A DNA stretch of 64,000 nt from Halomonas denitrificans (GTDB lineage: Bacteria; Pseudomonadota; Gammaproteobacteria; Xanthomonadales; Wenzhouxiangellaceae). The notes beneath the pieces are model-generated. The model searched no databases, was not told the origin of the DNA, and was given only the letters and a program-made list of their open reading frames with translations. A program made the position numbers and the translations under genes. Below, in pieces: positions 563 to 38,564 of this stretch (position 1 is the first letter of the stretch; each line of letters starts with the position of its first letter). The DNA lies in NCBI GenBank assembly GCA_019800895.1, contig JAHVKF010000002.1, forward strand, positions 62,001 to 126,000, written 5' to 3'.

Positions 563-3226
563 ATGAATCTGCCGCGCCGTTCGTCCCTGGCCCTGACGCT
601 GATCGCGCTCGTCGGCGTGACGGCCAGCACGTGGGCGGCCCTCTGGCTCCACGAGTCGGAGCACCGGCGCAATCGCGCCGAGCTCTCGGAGCAGATGGAG
701 CAGATCGCCGGCACCGTCGCCAGCCAGTTCGCCAAGTACGAAACGCTGCTGCTCGCCGGGCGCGCGCTGTTCGCCGGGTCCGACTTCGTGACCCGTCCCG
801 AATGGGCCCTGTTCACAGCGGAAGTCATCTCGGGCCAGGCCCTGCCCGGCCTGCTCGGCCTGGCCTGGGCCCCCTACGTCGACGATCCGATCGGCCTGGA
901 CCTGCTCTCCGACCAGCGCGCGGAAGAGGGGCTGGCGCCGCTCGAGGTCCGACCGGAGGGCGAGCGACCGTTCTACTGCCCGATCTTCTACAACGAACCG
1001 CTGGAAGACAATTCCTCCTCGATCGGGCGCGACATCTGCGAAGTCGCACCGCTGCACGACGCGCTCCGCCTGACCCGGGAGACCGGTTCGGCCCTGCTGT
1101 CGGCGCCGCTGGACTTCCGCACCGAGGACGGCGAATCCACGCTCGCCGGCTACGTGCTGCTGATCTGGGTGTCCGAGAAGTCGGCCAGCCACACGGGCTG
1201 GATCGCCGCGTCGATCGCCAACGAAGACCTGTTCGGTGCACCGACGGCCGCGCTGTCCGGCCTGCACTTCGCGGCCACGGACGTCACGGACCGGCCCGAG
1301 GTCATCTACGGGGCGACGCCGCCGCCGAACGACGACTGGCTGCATCGCGAAACCCGCGTCGAACGCGAGATTCCGGTGGCCGGCCGGACCTGGCGGCTGG
1401 AACTGGTCGAACCCCCGGTCCCCCTCGGCGCGGCGGCGCTGGTGCTGGTCGGCGGGCTCACGCTGACCGGGCTGCTCATCGCCTACCTGCTGGCCCTGTT
1501 CCAGACCCGAGGCCGGGCCGAACACCTGGCCCACCGGATGACCGAGAAGCTCAGCGAGAGCGAGCAGCTGCTGGCTTCGATCACCGACAACATCTTCGAG
1601 GGCATCTATCGAGGGCGCGCCGAAGAAGGCCTGATCTATGCCAACGAGTCGTTGGCGAAGATGTTCAACTACGACACGCCCGCGGAGATGATCGAACATG
1701 CCGGACCGATCCTCTATGCGCGCAGCGAACAGCGCGACGAACTGCTCGAGCTGCTCAAGCGCGACGGCTACTACCGGGACATCGAGGTCGAGTTCGTCCG
1801 CTCCGACGGGACGCGGTTCATCGGGGTGAACAATGCCGTGGCCACGCGCGACGACGACGGCAACATCCAGTACTTCGACGGCGCCATCTACGACATCACG
1901 GCACGCAAACGGGCCGAGGAACAGGTCCACCGGCTGGCCCACTACGATGCGCTGACCGGCCTGCCCAACCGAGCCATGCTCGACCGGCGGCTACGCCAGG
2001 CGATCAACCATGCACGCTCGTCGAAGCAGTCGCTGGCGATGCTGTTCATGGATCTCGACCACTTCAAGACGATCAACGATTCGCTGGGTCACAGCCTGGG
2101 GGATCAGCTGCTGGTCCAGGTCGCCAAGCGCCTGGGCGGCGGGCTTCGCAGCGACGACTCGGTCAGCCGCCTCGGCGGCGACGAGTTCCTGATCCTGCTG
2201 TCCGACGTCAAGAGCGAAGGCGCTGCACGGGGCGCGCAGCGCATCCTCGGCTTGTTCGCCGAGCCCTTCGACCTGGAGGGCCACGAGCTCCGCGTCACGC
2301 CGAGTATCGGCATCTCGATGTTCCCCAACGACGCGATCGACGCCGAGACGTTGATCCGGAACGCGGACGCCGCGATGTACGCCGCCAAGGAGAAGGGCCG
2401 GGCGAACTACCAGTTCTTCACGCCGGAGATGAACGACCGCGCGCGCGAGCGCCTGACCCTGGAAAGCGACCTGCGCCAGGCGCTGAAGACGGGGCAGCTG
2501 TCGATGCACTACCAGCCGGTCGTGCGGCTGGCCGATCGCCGCATCGTCGGCGCCGAGGCGCTGATGCGCTGGAACCATCCCGAGCACGGCAACATTCCGC
2601 CGTCGCGCTTCATTCCCATCGCCGAGCAGAGCGGCCTGATCATCGAGATCGGCGACTGGGCGATCGCCGAGGCCTGCCGCCAGCTGGCCGTATGGATGAA
2701 GGAGGGCTTCGAGCCGCTGCCGGTGGCGGTCAACGTCTCGGCCCTGCAGTTCTGGCGCGGCGGCCTCGTCGACCAGGTGCGATCGGCGCTCGACGCGAAC
2801 GCGCTCGACGCCGAGTGGCTGGAGCTCGAGCTCACCGAAAGCGTGATCATGCGCGACGCCGACACCGCCAGCCGCGTGATCTCCCAGCTCAACGGGCTGG
2901 GCGTCGGGCTGTCGATCGACGACTTCGGCACCGGCTATTCCAGCCTGAGTTACCTGAAGAAGTTCTCGATCAGCAAGCTGAAGATCGACCAATCCTTCGT
3001 CCAGGATCTCGGCCACGATCCCGACGACGCCGCGATCGTTTCGGCCGTGGTCAGCATGGCCGCGGACCTCGGCCTGCAGGTCGTCGCCGAGGGCGTGGAA
3101 ACCGAAGACCAGCGCTCGATGCTGATCGCCCGCGACTGCGAACTGGCCCAGGGCTTCCTGTTCGATCGGCCGATGCCGGCCGACGCCTTCAGCGCCCGCC
3201 TCCGCGCGGTGGCCACCGAGGCCTGA
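563..3226 (+). CDS. CHASE-PAS-GGDEF-EAL membrane sensor, c-di-GMP synthesis/degradation
   Basis: This 887-residue inner-membrane signalling protein starts at ATG 563, placed just before a signal-anchor segment (LALTLIALVGVTASTWAAL); the open frame extends further upstream only as non-membrane sequence. Order: TM1 about residues 8-27; periplasmic CHASE domain about 45-260 with the typical FVTRPEW segment; TM2 about 290-312; PAS about 330-450; GGDEF with the intact motif at 538-542 and an RxxD inhibitory site (RSDD) five residues before it; EAL at 665-667. The EAL part keeps the residues needed for hydrolysis: the NVS asparagine, the LTES glutamate, DDFGTG, LKID lysine, AEGVE and QGF. Both activities may be possible; which dominates cannot be read from sequence. 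An unknown extracellular ligand is expected for CHASE. It is divergent from the GntR gene. Confidence 0.92.
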   Translation: MNLPRRSSLALTLIALVGVTASTWAALWLHESEHRRNRAELSEQMEQIAGTVASQFAKYETLLLAGRALFAGSDFVTRPEWALFTAEVISGQALPGLLGLAWAPYVDDPIGLDLLSDQRAEEGLAPLEVRPEGERPFYCPIFYNEPLEDNSSSIGRDICEVAPLHDALRLTRETGSALLSAPLDFRTEDGESTLAGYVLLIWVSEKSASHTGWIAASIANEDLFGAPTAALSGLHFAATDVTDRPEVIYGATPPPNDDWLHRETRVEREIPVAGRTWRLELVEPPVPLGAAALVLVGGLTLTGLLIAYLLALFQTRGRAEHLAHRMTEKLSESEQLLASITDNIFEGIYRGRAEEGLIYANESLAKMFNYDTPAEMIEHAGPILYARSEQRDELLELLKRDGYYRDIEVEFVRSDGTRFIGVNNAVATRDDDGNIQYFDGAIYDITARKRAEEQVHRLAHYDALTGLPNRAMLDRRLRQAINHARSSKQSLAMLFMDLDHFKTINDSLGHSLGDQLLVQVAKRLGGGLRSDDSVSRLGGDEFLILLSDVKSEGAARGAQRILGLFAEPFDLEGHELRVTPSIGISMFPNDAIDAETLIRNADAAMYAAKEKGRANYQFFTPEMNDRARERLTLESDLRQALKTGQLSMHYQPVVRLADRRIVGAEALMRWNHPEHGNIPPSRFIPIAEQSGLIIEIGDWAIAEACRQLAVWMKEGFEPLPVAVNVSALQFWRGGLVDQVRSALDANALDAEWLELELTESVIMRDADTASRVISQLNGLGVGLSIDDFGTGYSSLSYLKKFSISKLKIDQSFVQDLGHDPDDAAIVSAVVSMAADLGLQVVAEGVETEDQRSMLIARDCELAQGFLFDRPMPADAFSARLRAVATEA

Positions 3227-34973: not shown

Positions 34974-35420
34974 TTACGGCGTGTCGTACACCCGGTGCAG
35001 CACGGTCAGGTACCGGGTCGGTTCCCGGTCATCGACGTACTGCTGGAGGATGTGATAACTCTTGCCGGCCTCGACCACCAGTTCGATGGTGTTGTAGTCG
35101 GTGTCCCGGCGCGAGCGCGGGTTTCTCCAGTCGAGACCCGGCGGTCGGCGGACCTTCGACCGGACCGTGATCTCGTACCGGCCGGGCTCGAGCCACAGGA
35201 CATCCCGGTCACCGACGATGTTGCGGCCGTCGATCATGATGAACGTGACCTCGTAGAGCTCGTTGGCCGGGTAGCCGGGAAACCCGACGATCTGCGCGGC
35301 GTCGGGGCCGGGCTGGGTCAGCGGAAGCGCCTGGGCCGGCGACGCGGCGATCGCCGCCAGGGCCGCGAACAGCGTGCCCGCCAGCGCGGCGTGGAAGGAT
35401 GTGCGGAAACGAGTCGTCAT
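34974..35420 (-). CDS. Small exported protein, function unknown
   Basis: The 148-residue product has a signal peptide (about 1-31, ends PAQA). The mature part is a compact beta-type domain with YEVTFIMIDGRNI, WLEPGRYEITVRSKV and VEAGKSYHILQQYV, the pattern of PEGA-like or surface-exposed beta domains. No catalytic motif is visible. AGGAG lies seven bases before ATG 35420. The upstream region carries a phased GAA array at the same distance as the one upstream of the winged-helix regulator gene, suggesting control by that regulator. Confidence 0.7.
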   Translation of the reverse strand: MTTRFRTSFHAALAGTLFAALAAIAASPAQALPLTQPGPDAAQIVGFPGYPANELYEVTFIMIDGRNIVGDRDVLWLEPGRYEITVRSKVRRPPGLDWRNPRSRRDTDYNTIELVVEAGKSYHILQQYVDDREPTRYLTVLHRVYDTP

Positions 35421-35482
35421 GGCGAATCTCCTGTCTGGATGGACGTCGATGGACGTGGAGTCAGAATGCGTCGCGCCTGCGG

Positions 35483-35538
35483 TGAAGTCGATGGAACGGA
35501 CCTGAAATTGTCCGGAAATCGGCGTGAACCAGCCTGAA
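35483..35538. promoter_or_regulatory. Helically phased xGAA repeat array, site 1
   Basis: TGAA or GGAA occurs at 35483, 35493, 35503, 35514, 35525 and 35535, spaced 10, 10, 11, 11 and 10 bp. Tandem sites with this spacing are typical of OmpR/PhoB-type winged-helix regulators. The array begins 63 bp upstream of the start of the exported protein gene. It shares ATGGAACG-N2-CCTGAA with the array at 36535. Confidence 0.55.
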
Positions 35539-35558
35539 GGGCTTTCGATACAGGCCGT

Positions 35559-36473
35559 TCAGAATCCTTCGGCACGGAGTTCCGGCCAGCGCGCGACCAG
35601 GTCGGCGACCAGCGTCTCGGCCACCGCACCGGCCGACACGGGCGCGCCGGGATCACCGACCGCGGTGCCGGTCCAGACCACCTCACCGCGCGGCAGGCGC
35701 AGCAGGCGGGCCTCGATCCGCCAGCCGTCCCGGTCGTTCAGTCGGTCCGGGATCAGGCTGCCCTCGAGCACCAGCGACGCGCCAAGCTCGGCGGCCACGA
35801 ACTCCGTACGATCGCGGCCGGTCAGCGCATCGCCCATCGACGTCCGGCCGATCAGCACCAGGCCGTCGAGCTCGGCCTGCCAGAGCGCCGCCAGCAGCGT
35901 GTCGGCCAGGACCAGGTCGAGGTTGGTCGCATCGACCGCGGGGTCGCCGAGCATCTCGAACGGCACCACGGCCAGCCGGGGCACCGGATCCGCGGCCTCG
36001 TCGCGGTCGATCACCCACCACGCGAGCAGCGCCGCCATCCCCAGCACGATCACCAGGGCGGCGGCCCGTCGCCGGCGCCGCCCCATCGGCGGCTCCGACC
36101 CGCCCGGGTCCGGCGGCGCCGACCCGCTGGCCGCCGGGCTGGGGTCGGCCGGTTCGGTCCGGGGGTCGGCGTGGAAGCGGTAACCGCGGCGCGGCACGGT
36201 CTCGAGCAGCTCATCCGGGGCGCCGGTGGCGCGCAGCGCGTGACGAAGCTCCTTGACCAGCGCGGACAGGCCGGACTCGAAGTCGACGACCCGGTCTTCG
36301 CCCCAGACGGCCCGGCACAGGGACTCGCGATCGATCACCTGTCCGGGACGGGCGAGAAAGGCCTCGAGGAGCGTGGCCACCTGCGGCCGGAGCGTCTGTG
36401 CGCCGCCCCCGGCGCCTTGCAGCGAACCGTCGGAAGGATCGTATTCGAGCCCTGAAAAGCGAATCTGCGCCAT
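35559..36473 (-). CDS. ToxR/CadC-like membrane-anchored winged-helix regulator
   Basis: This 304-residue protein has an N-terminal OmpR-type DNA-binding domain (about 5-102: LRPQVATLLEAFLARPGQVI, then LCRAVWG, LVKELRHALRA, ETVPRRGYRF). A Pro/Ser-rich cytosolic linker leads to a single TM helix (about 137-154, AAALVIVLGMAALLAWWV). The periplasmic part (about 165-300) resembles the TolB/FlgO-type fold: RLAVVPFEML, GASLVLEGSL. Such proteins sense envelope cues while bound to DNA. Phased repeats lie upstream of its own gene and upstream of the next gene downstream, so autoregulation plus control of the small exported protein is likely (inference). Confidence 0.85.
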   Translation of the reverse strand: MAQIRFSGLEYDPSDGSLQGAGGGAQTLRPQVATLLEAFLARPGQVIDRESLCRAVWGEDRVVDFESGLSALVKELRHALRATGAPDELLETVPRRGYRFHADPRTEPADPSPAASGSAPPDPGGSEPPMGRRRRRAAALVIVLGMAALLAWWVIDRDEAADPVPRLAVVPFEMLGDPAVDATNLDLVLADTLLAALWQAELDGLVLIGRTSMGDALTGRDRTEFVAAELGASLVLEGSLIPDRLNDRDGWRIEARLLRLPRGEVVWTGTAVGDPGAPVSAGAVAETLVADLVARWPELRAEGF

Positions 36474-36534
36474 TGCCTCGTGCCTCGCCGGGACGTCCGA
36501 CGACCATTCTGCCGAACGCGCTGGAGAGAACCAT

Positions 36535-36570
36535 GGAACGAGCCTGAATCTTCCCTGAAACGCCGCGGAA
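36535..36570. promoter_or_regulatory. Helically phased xGAA repeat array, site 2
   Basis: GGAA 36535, TGAA 36545, TGAA 36556 and GGAA 36567 are spaced 10, 11 and 11 bp, with weaker AGAA 36527 and CGAA 36574 outside. CCTGAA is repeated 11 bp apart (36543, 36554). The array starts 62 bp before the regulator start. It also lies directly upstream of TAGACT (36605-36610), a -10-like box for the divergent gene at 36675. Confidence 0.55.
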
Positions 36571-36674
36571 ATGCGAACCCGTCATGCCCGACCGCCCGGC
36601 CCGCTAGACTTCGCGATCGGACCGGCCGCCGCAGCGCCGGTCGTACCCTGCGAAACCCCAGCCGGAGAGCCCGC

Positions 36675-37223
36675 ATGACCGAACCCGCCCTCTACGCCGT
36701 CTGCCTCGGGGGCCGCGCCCCGGGCTGCAACGTCGAACTCCACGACGTGGTATTTGCCGTCGGCAGCTCCCTCGAGGACATCCACGGGCAGTTGCTCGAT
36801 CGCTGGTTCGGCGAACCCGGCCGGGTGCACGTCGACGCCTGGGCCCGGGTCGACACCGTACCGGGCTACCGGGTCCACCTGCAGCGCGCGCCGTCCGACG
36901 GCGGACCGCAGCTCTACTTCGTCAACATCGGCGGCTACGCGCCCGGCGAACTGCTCGAACGCCACGCCTACGCGCTGTATGCCGGCGAATCGGTGGCCGA
37001 AGTCAAGGCGAAGGCGAAGGCCGAACTGCTGGCCGGCAGGGACTCGGTGCATCGCGACGACCTCTACGACATCGACGACCTGCTGGCGATCGACCGGGTC
37101 GATGGCTGGCACGTGGCCCTGGAAGCCGATCCGGACGCCGGGGCGCCAGAGATCGTCAACGGCTACTTCCCGCTGCCGCGCGCGACGATCGAGGCCTGGA
37201 AGCGCGAACGAGGACTCGACTGA
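36675..37223 (+). CDS. DUF1543-like protein
   Basis: The 182-residue cytosolic protein begins LYAVCLGGRAPGCNVELHDV and has a second, similar half near 70-110 (LYFVNIGGYAPGELLERHAY), the duplicated pattern of DUF1543. Function is unknown in the family. Start ATG 36675 follows GGAGAG by six bases. It is divergent from the winged-helix regulator across about 200 bp that hold the phased array, so it may be a third target. It is convergent with the DUF2165 gene. Confidence 0.75.
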   Translation: MTEPALYAVCLGGRAPGCNVELHDVVFAVGSSLEDIHGQLLDRWFGEPGRVHVDAWARVDTVPGYRVHLQRAPSDGGPQLYFVNIGGYAPGELLERHAYALYAGESVAEVKAKAKAELLAGRDSVHRDDLYDIDDLLAIDRVDGWHVALEADPDAGAPEIVNGYFPLPRATIEAWKRERGLD

Positions 37224-37880: not shown

Positions 37881-37925
37881 ATGCCGTTGACGAACATGTT
37901 GTTGACGAACATGTTGTTGACAGAC
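37881..37925. repeat. Three tandem 15-bp repeats
   Basis: Three consecutive units: ATGCCGTTGACGAAC, ATGTTGTTGACGAAC, ATGTTGTTGACAGAC. Each contains TTGAC, a -35-like core. They lie 18 bp before ATG 37944 of the CIA30-like gene. There are no spacers, so this is not CRISPR. Confidence 0.7.
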
Positions 37926-37943: not shown

Positions 37944-38564
37944 ATGAGGCACCCGATCCACAACCTGTCCATCCTTCTGATCCTCATCGGAGTCGCCGCC
38001 GTGGCCAAGGGCGAGGAACGCCTGCTCGATGATTTCAGCCGCAACGACGGCCGGTCCGCGTTCGGCACGTCCTGGACCGGCTTCACGGACCGTGTCATGG
38101 GTGGCCGCTCCGACCTCGCGGCCGGCTACGTGGTGACCGGGACCGGCCCGGCGCTCCGGATGCGCGGCACGGTCCGGCTGGACAACAACGGAGGATTCGT
38201 CCAGCTTCGACTGCCGCTGGTGCTGGGCCGTCGGCCGCTGGATGCGTCCGCCTTCGATCGCTTCGTGGTCGAGGCACGGGGCCGGCCGGGCCCCTACTAC
38301 CTGCACCTGCGCACCCCGCAGACCCGTCGGCCCTGGGCCTACTACCGGGCGCGACTGGATATCGGCACGGACTGGCGGCGGATCGTGGTGCCGCTGAGCG
38401 AGTTCGATGGGGTGTCGATCGACCGACCCCTGGACGTGTCCCGCCTGCTCTCGGTGGCGCTGGTGGCCTACGGCGAAGCCTTCGAGGCCGACCTGGTGGT
38501 CCGCCGCATCTCGCTCATGGGTCCGGCTGACACGCCGGACAGCGATACAGCCGACGGCCGCTGA
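37944..38564 (+). CDS. CIA30/NDUFAF1-like carbohydrate-binding-fold protein
   Basis: The 206-residue product starts at ATG 37944 with a signal-like helix (about 6-21); the open frame upstream is only the tandem repeats. The mature part matches the CIA30 pattern: DDFSRNDGRSAFGTSWTGFT, DRVMGGRSD, GPYYLHLRTPQTRRPWAYYR and IVVPLSEF. In mitochondria CIA30 assists complex I assembly; bacterial relatives are exported and of uncertain role. Its last 50 bp overlap the 3' end of nei on the other strand. Confidence 0.8.
   Translation: MRHPIHNLSILLILIGVAAVAKGEERLLDDFSRNDGRSAFGTSWTGFTDRVMGGRSDLAAGYVVTGTGPALRMRGTVRLDNNGGFVQLRLPLVLGRRPLDASAFDRFVVEARGRPGPYYLHLRTPQTRRPWAYYRARLDIGTDWRRIVVPLSEFDGVSIDRPLDVSRLLSVALVAYGEAFEADLVVRRISLMGPADTPDSDTADGR

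Follow-up and report, generated by a model that had tools for sequence, protein, structure and literature searches.

Two short arrays of evenly spaced xGAA units lie in the window (the whole stretch of 64,000 nucleotides analysed here, from Halomonas denitrificans, Wenzhouxiangellaceae), one ahead of a gene for a predicted membrane-anchored regulator and the other ahead of a neighbouring gene for a small exported protein. Which protein do these arrays serve, and which genes would it control through them? The initial annotation took them for the operator of the regulator itself, explaining autoregulation, control of the exported protein and perhaps control of a divergent DUF1543 gene, within a small undescribed envelope-sensing circuit.

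Two phased arrays and the proteins beside them

Both arrays were found where they had been reported, with the same spacing of 10–11 bp and the same distances to the genes. Read on the plus strand, the xGAA cores of array 1 start at 35483, 35493, 35503, 35514, 35525 and 35535 (steps of 10, 10, 11, 11 and 10), the first lying 63 bp from the ATG of the exported gene (35420); those of array 2 start at 36535, 36545, 36556 and 36567 (steps of 10, 11 and 11), the first lying 62 bp from the ATG of the regulator gene (36473). In the 3.21-Mb home genome the two arrays hold the only mismatch-free copies of the core that they were said to share, ATGGAACG-N2-CCTGAA; with two mismatches it occurs at 11 further places (reversed control pattern, four matches). 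Since both genes are on the minus strand, the arrays are better read as the reverse complement, in which TTTCAGG-like units stand head to tail. The genome scan proposed earlier was run with this reading: TTTCAGG-N4-TTTCAGG-N4-TTTCAGG, with at most three mismatches, matched the whole home genome three times, always inside the two arrays (two of the matches overlap, in array 2), and the control pattern matched nowhere. Not every xGAA core belongs to such a unit: GGAA at 35493 and at 36535 is part of a second conserved element, TTCCATGG, and TGAA at 35483 lies within the promoter spacer, in low-information columns. The features of the locus are as follows.

34974..35420, minus strand: small exported protein of 148 aa, the proposed target (model pLDDT 82.5; strong matches in 26 of 43 genomes)
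35463..35468, minus strand: putative -10-like box of the exported gene, CATTCT (at the fixed column 62–67 after the array in relatives)
35488..35529, minus strand: candidate operator of the exported gene, with units at 35529-35523, 35518-35512 and 35507-35501, then TTCCATCG at 35496-35489
35539-35533, minus strand: extra unit, CTTCAGG, upstream of the exported gene's operator
35559..36473, minus strand: regulator of 304 aa (PF00486, E 6.7e-14; model and fold search; ortholog in 25 of 43 genomes)
36506..36511, minus strand: putative -10-like box of the regulator gene, CAGAAT (placed by eye, one base off the common column)
36530..36571, minus strand: candidate operator of the regulator gene, with units at 36571-36565, 36560-36554 and 36549-36543, then TTCCATGG at 36538-36531

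The regulator consists of an OmpR-type winged helix (approximately residues 1–107), a predicted transmembrane helix (133–156) and a C-terminal TolB/FlgT/PelC-like domain. Its DNA-binding domain, recognized from the start as OmpR-type, was recovered by Pfam (PF00486, E 6.7e-14) and was present in all 16 orthologs scanned, in each as the sole Pfam match at E ≤ 0.01. Neither these Pfam scans nor the model revealed a receiver domain, and the winged helix starts at the N terminus, both as expected of the ToxR/CadC class. The structural model (mean pLDDT 85, pTM 0.53) has one hydrophobic helix, at 133–156, between the DNA-binding and outer domains; the nearest solved relatives of the DNA-binding domain are ToxR, then CadC and PhoB, and in a fold search on the model the outer domain resembled FlgT, PelC, TolB and GNA1162. 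By sequence and predicted structure, the regulator is a new ToxR/CadC-like member, and from its predicted topology we infer that it may sense the state of the envelope.

The exported protein has a signal-like N terminus followed, in the model, by a beta-rich domain. It scored 17.2 bits against the DUF2846 cut-off of 34.3, and four of 17 relatives matched that family at E ≤ 0.01 (best E 0.0024); a search of its fold against the PDB gave no match at E ≤ 0.001 (best 3.8e-3). Members of its family were found at E ≤ 1e-8 in 77 of 250 genomes of the order, 43 of them outside Wenzhouxiangellaceae, where no match was stronger than 4.2e-24. In some genomes two exported copies accompany the regulator, as in L039 (3987-4439 and 4510-4962) and in G015, where they lie on both sides of it.

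Conservation of the array with the regulator ortholog

The first 16 loci served to define the TTTCAGG unit by eye, and each promoter was scored by its best three-unit match (out of 21) at an 11-bp step within 300 bp upstream of the exported gene. On the sense strand, exported-gene promoters scored 16–21 in all 25 genomes that carry a regulator ortholog, including the nine outside the first 16 (G043, G050 and G052-G058; 16–20 of 21); in a named genome, that of Thioalkalivibrio sp. XN8, the array scored 17. The step was specific: all 25 promoters reached at least 16 of 21 at step 11, and none of the remaining steps between 8 and 16 brought more than one of the 25 to that score. No promoter (0 of 25) reached it when the antisense strand was scored, and four of 1,750 control windows did so (half-overlapping windows, at two places). 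The arrays are genuine, and a chance origin is ruled out by the spacing, by genomes that had no part in defining the unit and by the control windows.

On the coding strand the layout consists of about three TTTCAGG units at an exact 11-bp step, then TTCCATGG, then a -10-like box. Tabulating the columns of the 25 sites gave TTTCAGG-N2AA-TTTCAGG-N2AA-TTTCAGG-N4-TTCCATGG, followed by 20 mostly uninformative columns and CAnnnT. Measured from the CAnnnT box, CCATGG falls on the -35 region, with the units extending upstream of it; the distance from the end of CCATGG to the start codon, with start codons chosen by a simple Shine-Dalgarno rule, was 56–75 bp in 21 of the 25 genomes and 82–100 bp in the other four. 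The -10-like column matched TATAAT at 2.92 of 6 positions, compared with 1.14 for random positions, and the best -35 match was 2.92 of 6 against 2.31 for random, so that a -35 element is not clearly lacking.

The array tracks the regulator. A 16-sequence profile recovered orthologs from 25 of the 43 family genomes, all at E ≤ 6.6e-69, and the ranking resumes at 6.8e-36 with longer open frames. Full-length orthologs were identified in 15 of 40 relatives (E ≤ 4.4e-43); in a scan of named genomes, the closest relatives among the best 80 loci listed belonged to Wenzhouxiangella and Wenzhouxiangellaceae. Strong matches to the exported protein (E ≤ 7e-33) occur in 26 of the 43 genomes, among them all 25 with the regulator, and weak relatives (E 2.3e-24 to 2.4e-14) in eight more. 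The one strong case of loss is G005, in which the exported gene (E 8.4e-56) is kept, no regulator ortholog is found and the array is missing (10 of 21 upstream of the gene and at most 12 across the whole 3.4-kb locus). Arrays were likewise absent from the four genomes with weak exported relatives that were scored on the sense strand (11–14 of 21; the other four of the eight gave no locus). Where the assembly does not place the two genes side by side (about 10 kb apart in G055, on different contigs in G053, G057 and G058), the array still stands before the exported gene, and it therefore follows the promoter and is not tied to the regulator gene's end. The observation that was to overturn the earlier proposal, relatives with both genes and no array, did not occur among the 25. 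Relatives that have the regulator keep the array, and it is absent without the regulator, which makes it with high probability the landing site of the membrane-anchored regulator, and the proposed control of the exported gene by its OmpR-type neighbour gains from the same distribution. At the level of sequence comparison we regard conservation, exact spacing, absence without the regulator, promoter geometry and near-exclusive occurrence at this locus as established.

Autoregulation is less general. Eight of the 24 regulator genes that could be scored (that of G055 is at a contig edge) have an array of their own, at 16–20 of 21, and the other 16 have none (10–13 of 21 on the sense strand), including that of XN8 (10 of 21). 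In G015, G020 and G021 an array-bearing exported gene directly precedes the regulator; elsewhere the preceding gene, judged by eye from translations, resembles FtsB in several genomes and, in G002, MutM. The autoregulation proposed earlier is thus retained for the home genome and for eight of 24 genomes, with three more by way of the preceding exported gene, and abandoned as a general rule: it is likely in the home lineage, from the array before the gene, and lineage-dependent overall.

Further targets were sought with a model (R1) of 33 sites, that is, the 25 exported promoters and the eight regulator promoters with at least 16 of 21. In the home genome, with 150 of 326 first-look candidates scored, it found only the two arrays at E ≤ 10. 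A scan of 43 genomes, with at most 150 first-look candidates scored in each, yielded 33 matches at E < 1e-3, 31 of which are training sites and 32 of which lie at the regulator/exported-gene locus; the non-training match at the locus is a second array before the second exported copy in G015. Two training sites scored weakly (G057, E 0.06; G001, E 0.04), and the best match in the 18 genomes without an ortholog had E 0.0066. The one match outside the locus (G054:C126:34809-34849, equivalent to L208 1307-1347; E 2e-4) carries CCATGG and precedes a frame that reads by eye as an exported Sel1-repeat-like protein; at 12 loci of homologs in other genomes the best three-unit score anywhere was 12–16 of 21. 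The model scan of the 43 genomes found no wide regulon, and in the home genome the exported gene's distant copy lacks an array (11 of 21). Control of the divergent DUF1543 gene (36675-37223), which had been tentatively proposed, is unsupported, because the TTTCAGG units are oriented towards the regulator gene and DUF1543, present in 19 of 43 genomes, adjoins the regulator only in the two closest, G000 and G004; we reject it as a conserved target. Farther along the window, at approximately 37886-37922, a short direct repeat (gttgacgaacatgtt-like) precedes a frame that ends at 38564.

Probable mode of action and relation to known regulators

The layout suggests a simple mechanism. The ToxR/CadC-like regulator, anchored in the membrane, would bind the arrays flanking its own gene, its winged-helix domain occupying TTTCAGG half-sites head to tail in 11-bp steps, in a row that would end at the TTCCATGG element over the -35 region. 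A signal reaching the outer domain would then lead it to switch on the gene for the small exported protein and, in the home lineage and some others, its own gene. Physical binding, activation, the signal and the role of the exported protein are parts that we infer; as a whole, we consider it highly likely from the sequence comparison that the arrays are operators through which the regulator activates the gene of the exported protein and, in certain lineages, its own.

The regulator might instead use the same operator as a repressor, covering the -35 region and releasing it on a signal, and a place for TTCCATGG over that region beside a well-conserved -10 column would suit this arrangement. Against it, the units extend upstream from the -35 region, as they do for activators that replace the -35 element, such as PhoB, and the -35 match is just slightly above random. 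ToxR is known as an activator, a repressor or a coactivator, according to PMC8517210, a versatility that leaves repression some room. We regard repression as possible though rather unlikely, and we prefer activation to it with moderate conviction.

A different OmpR/ToxR-type protein, for example a paralog, could also bind the arrays, the linked regulator having other sites. Arrays of similar units, reaching 16 of 21, occur at nine of 60 paralogous regulator regions, and a paralog could therefore bind those of the window. Yet the array follows the ortholog (25 of 25 genomes with it, none of one without it and none of the four with weak exported relatives), and the two paralog regions tested in the home genome are without an array (10–11 of 21), which makes this reading improbable. 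That the arrays merely reflect shared ancestry of intergenic DNA, with no binding function, is scarcely credible: the genes are adjacent in most genomes and the DNA between them would be co-inherited, but the window proteins are just 37–59% (regulator) and 37–47% (exported protein) identical to their relatives, most spacer columns are low in information and the units high, the step is exactly 11 bp and the array is retained where the genes are apart.

The proposed circuit can be set beside three known systems. PhoB binds 11-bp head-to-tail half-sites over the -35 region at the pho box, and its DNA-binding fold (1gxp, 1gxq) is similar; the window regulator differs in being membrane-anchored and in its half-site, and with no receiver match and a winged helix at the N terminus it is not a PhoB-type two-component response regulator. 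CadC of Escherichia coli has the order predicted here of N-terminal DNA-binding domain, transmembrane helix and C-terminal sensor, and 5ju7 matches the DNA-binding domain, whereas the outer domain and the neighbouring genes are different; the regulator falls far below the cut-off of the NCBIfam CadC model (23.4 versus 400 bits). The nearest solved relative of the DNA-binding domain is ToxR, also membrane-anchored with an N-terminal winged helix, the regulator model matching the ToxR–DNA structures 8b4b, 8b4c and 8b4d. For ToxR of Vibrio cholerae, PMC8517210 gives the tox-box as TNAAA-N5-TNAAA, likewise a direct repeat, and TTTNA, the reverse complement of TNAAA, fits the TTTCA of the window. 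The tox-box as given there has a 10-bp step, however, a spacing that we reject for the window array (step 11 in 25 of 25 promoters versus one of 25); the array is also made of about three units plus TTCCATGG, and its regulator has a TolB/FlgT/PelC-like outer domain and apparently very few targets. A literature search, judged from its listings, returned no description of this circuit, in agreement with the earlier view of it as undescribed.

Repeats at 11-bp steps beside distant regulators

Similar arrays accompany some distant regulators. In Mesorhizobium, TTTCAGG triple arrays (L089, ~100-145, 19 of 21; L118, ~2955-3000, 18 of 21) lie where a distant ToxR/CadC-like regulator gene begins and point away from it, and at L118 the divergent frame (2514-2867, minus strand) reads as a small exported protein. 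The exported family of the window itself gave no match at E ≤ 1e-3 at 63 distant regulator loci or at two family loci (L050 and L055).

Three-fold repeats were also counted at each step from 8 to 16 with no sequence preference. Step 11 stood out in the set of distant loci (61 of the 63, L112 and L070 being left out; z 5.4) and in 60 regions of paralogs from the family and the order, hand-picked from the matches listed before their DNA was seen (z 6.8), with all other steps within 1.6 in both sets, z values that are inflated by the relatedness of some loci (L089/L118, L079/L084 and several paralog groups). At least six of eight identical columns were found in seven of the 60 paralog regions at step 11 and in none or one at other steps. 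The 42 regions before distant regulators gave z 3.5 at step 11 and six cases of at least 5; for 69 intergenic regions elsewhere in the distant loci the values were −1.4 and no such case, and since their other steps ranged from −2.4 to 1.8, a z near 2 is meaningless here. The nine paralog regions that reach 16 of 21 with the window's unit all do so pointing away from the regulator and none toward it, and at steps 9, 10, 12 and 13 one region in all reaches that score. The TTTCAGG unit is therefore not private to the window's regulator.

Among 12 loci chosen for high score, the nearest divergent frame was judged by eye to encode an exported protein in eight, a membrane-bound protein in two and neither in two. 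Within L231-L290 and L291-L302, triple repeats at 11 bp precede genes of paralogous ToxR/CadC-like regulators, and most of these repeats face a divergent gene whose product is exported or membrane-bound. The majority of regulators in both sets have no clear array, and 11-bp repeats beside distant ToxR/CadC-like regulators are a tendency, not yet a rule. We lean, somewhat beyond even chances, towards a general operator code across phyla. ToxR/CadC-like regulators with TolB-type outer domains would use at least three direct repeats in 11-bp steps, each built around a TGA(A) core (in many cases CYTGAWW, which reads TTTCARG on the opposite strand); the repeats would lie next to the regulator gene and in most cases face a neighbouring divergent gene whose product is exported or membrane-bound.

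For a membrane regulator that had not been studied, comparison alone has supplied a probable operator, a proposed target and the layout of the promoter. If the general code is true, the targets of many orphan membrane regulators could be readable from sequence; if the wider 11-bp signal holds, it would allow target prediction for a large and mostly unassigned class of regulators, and would open the question of how half-site letters depend on the recognition helix.
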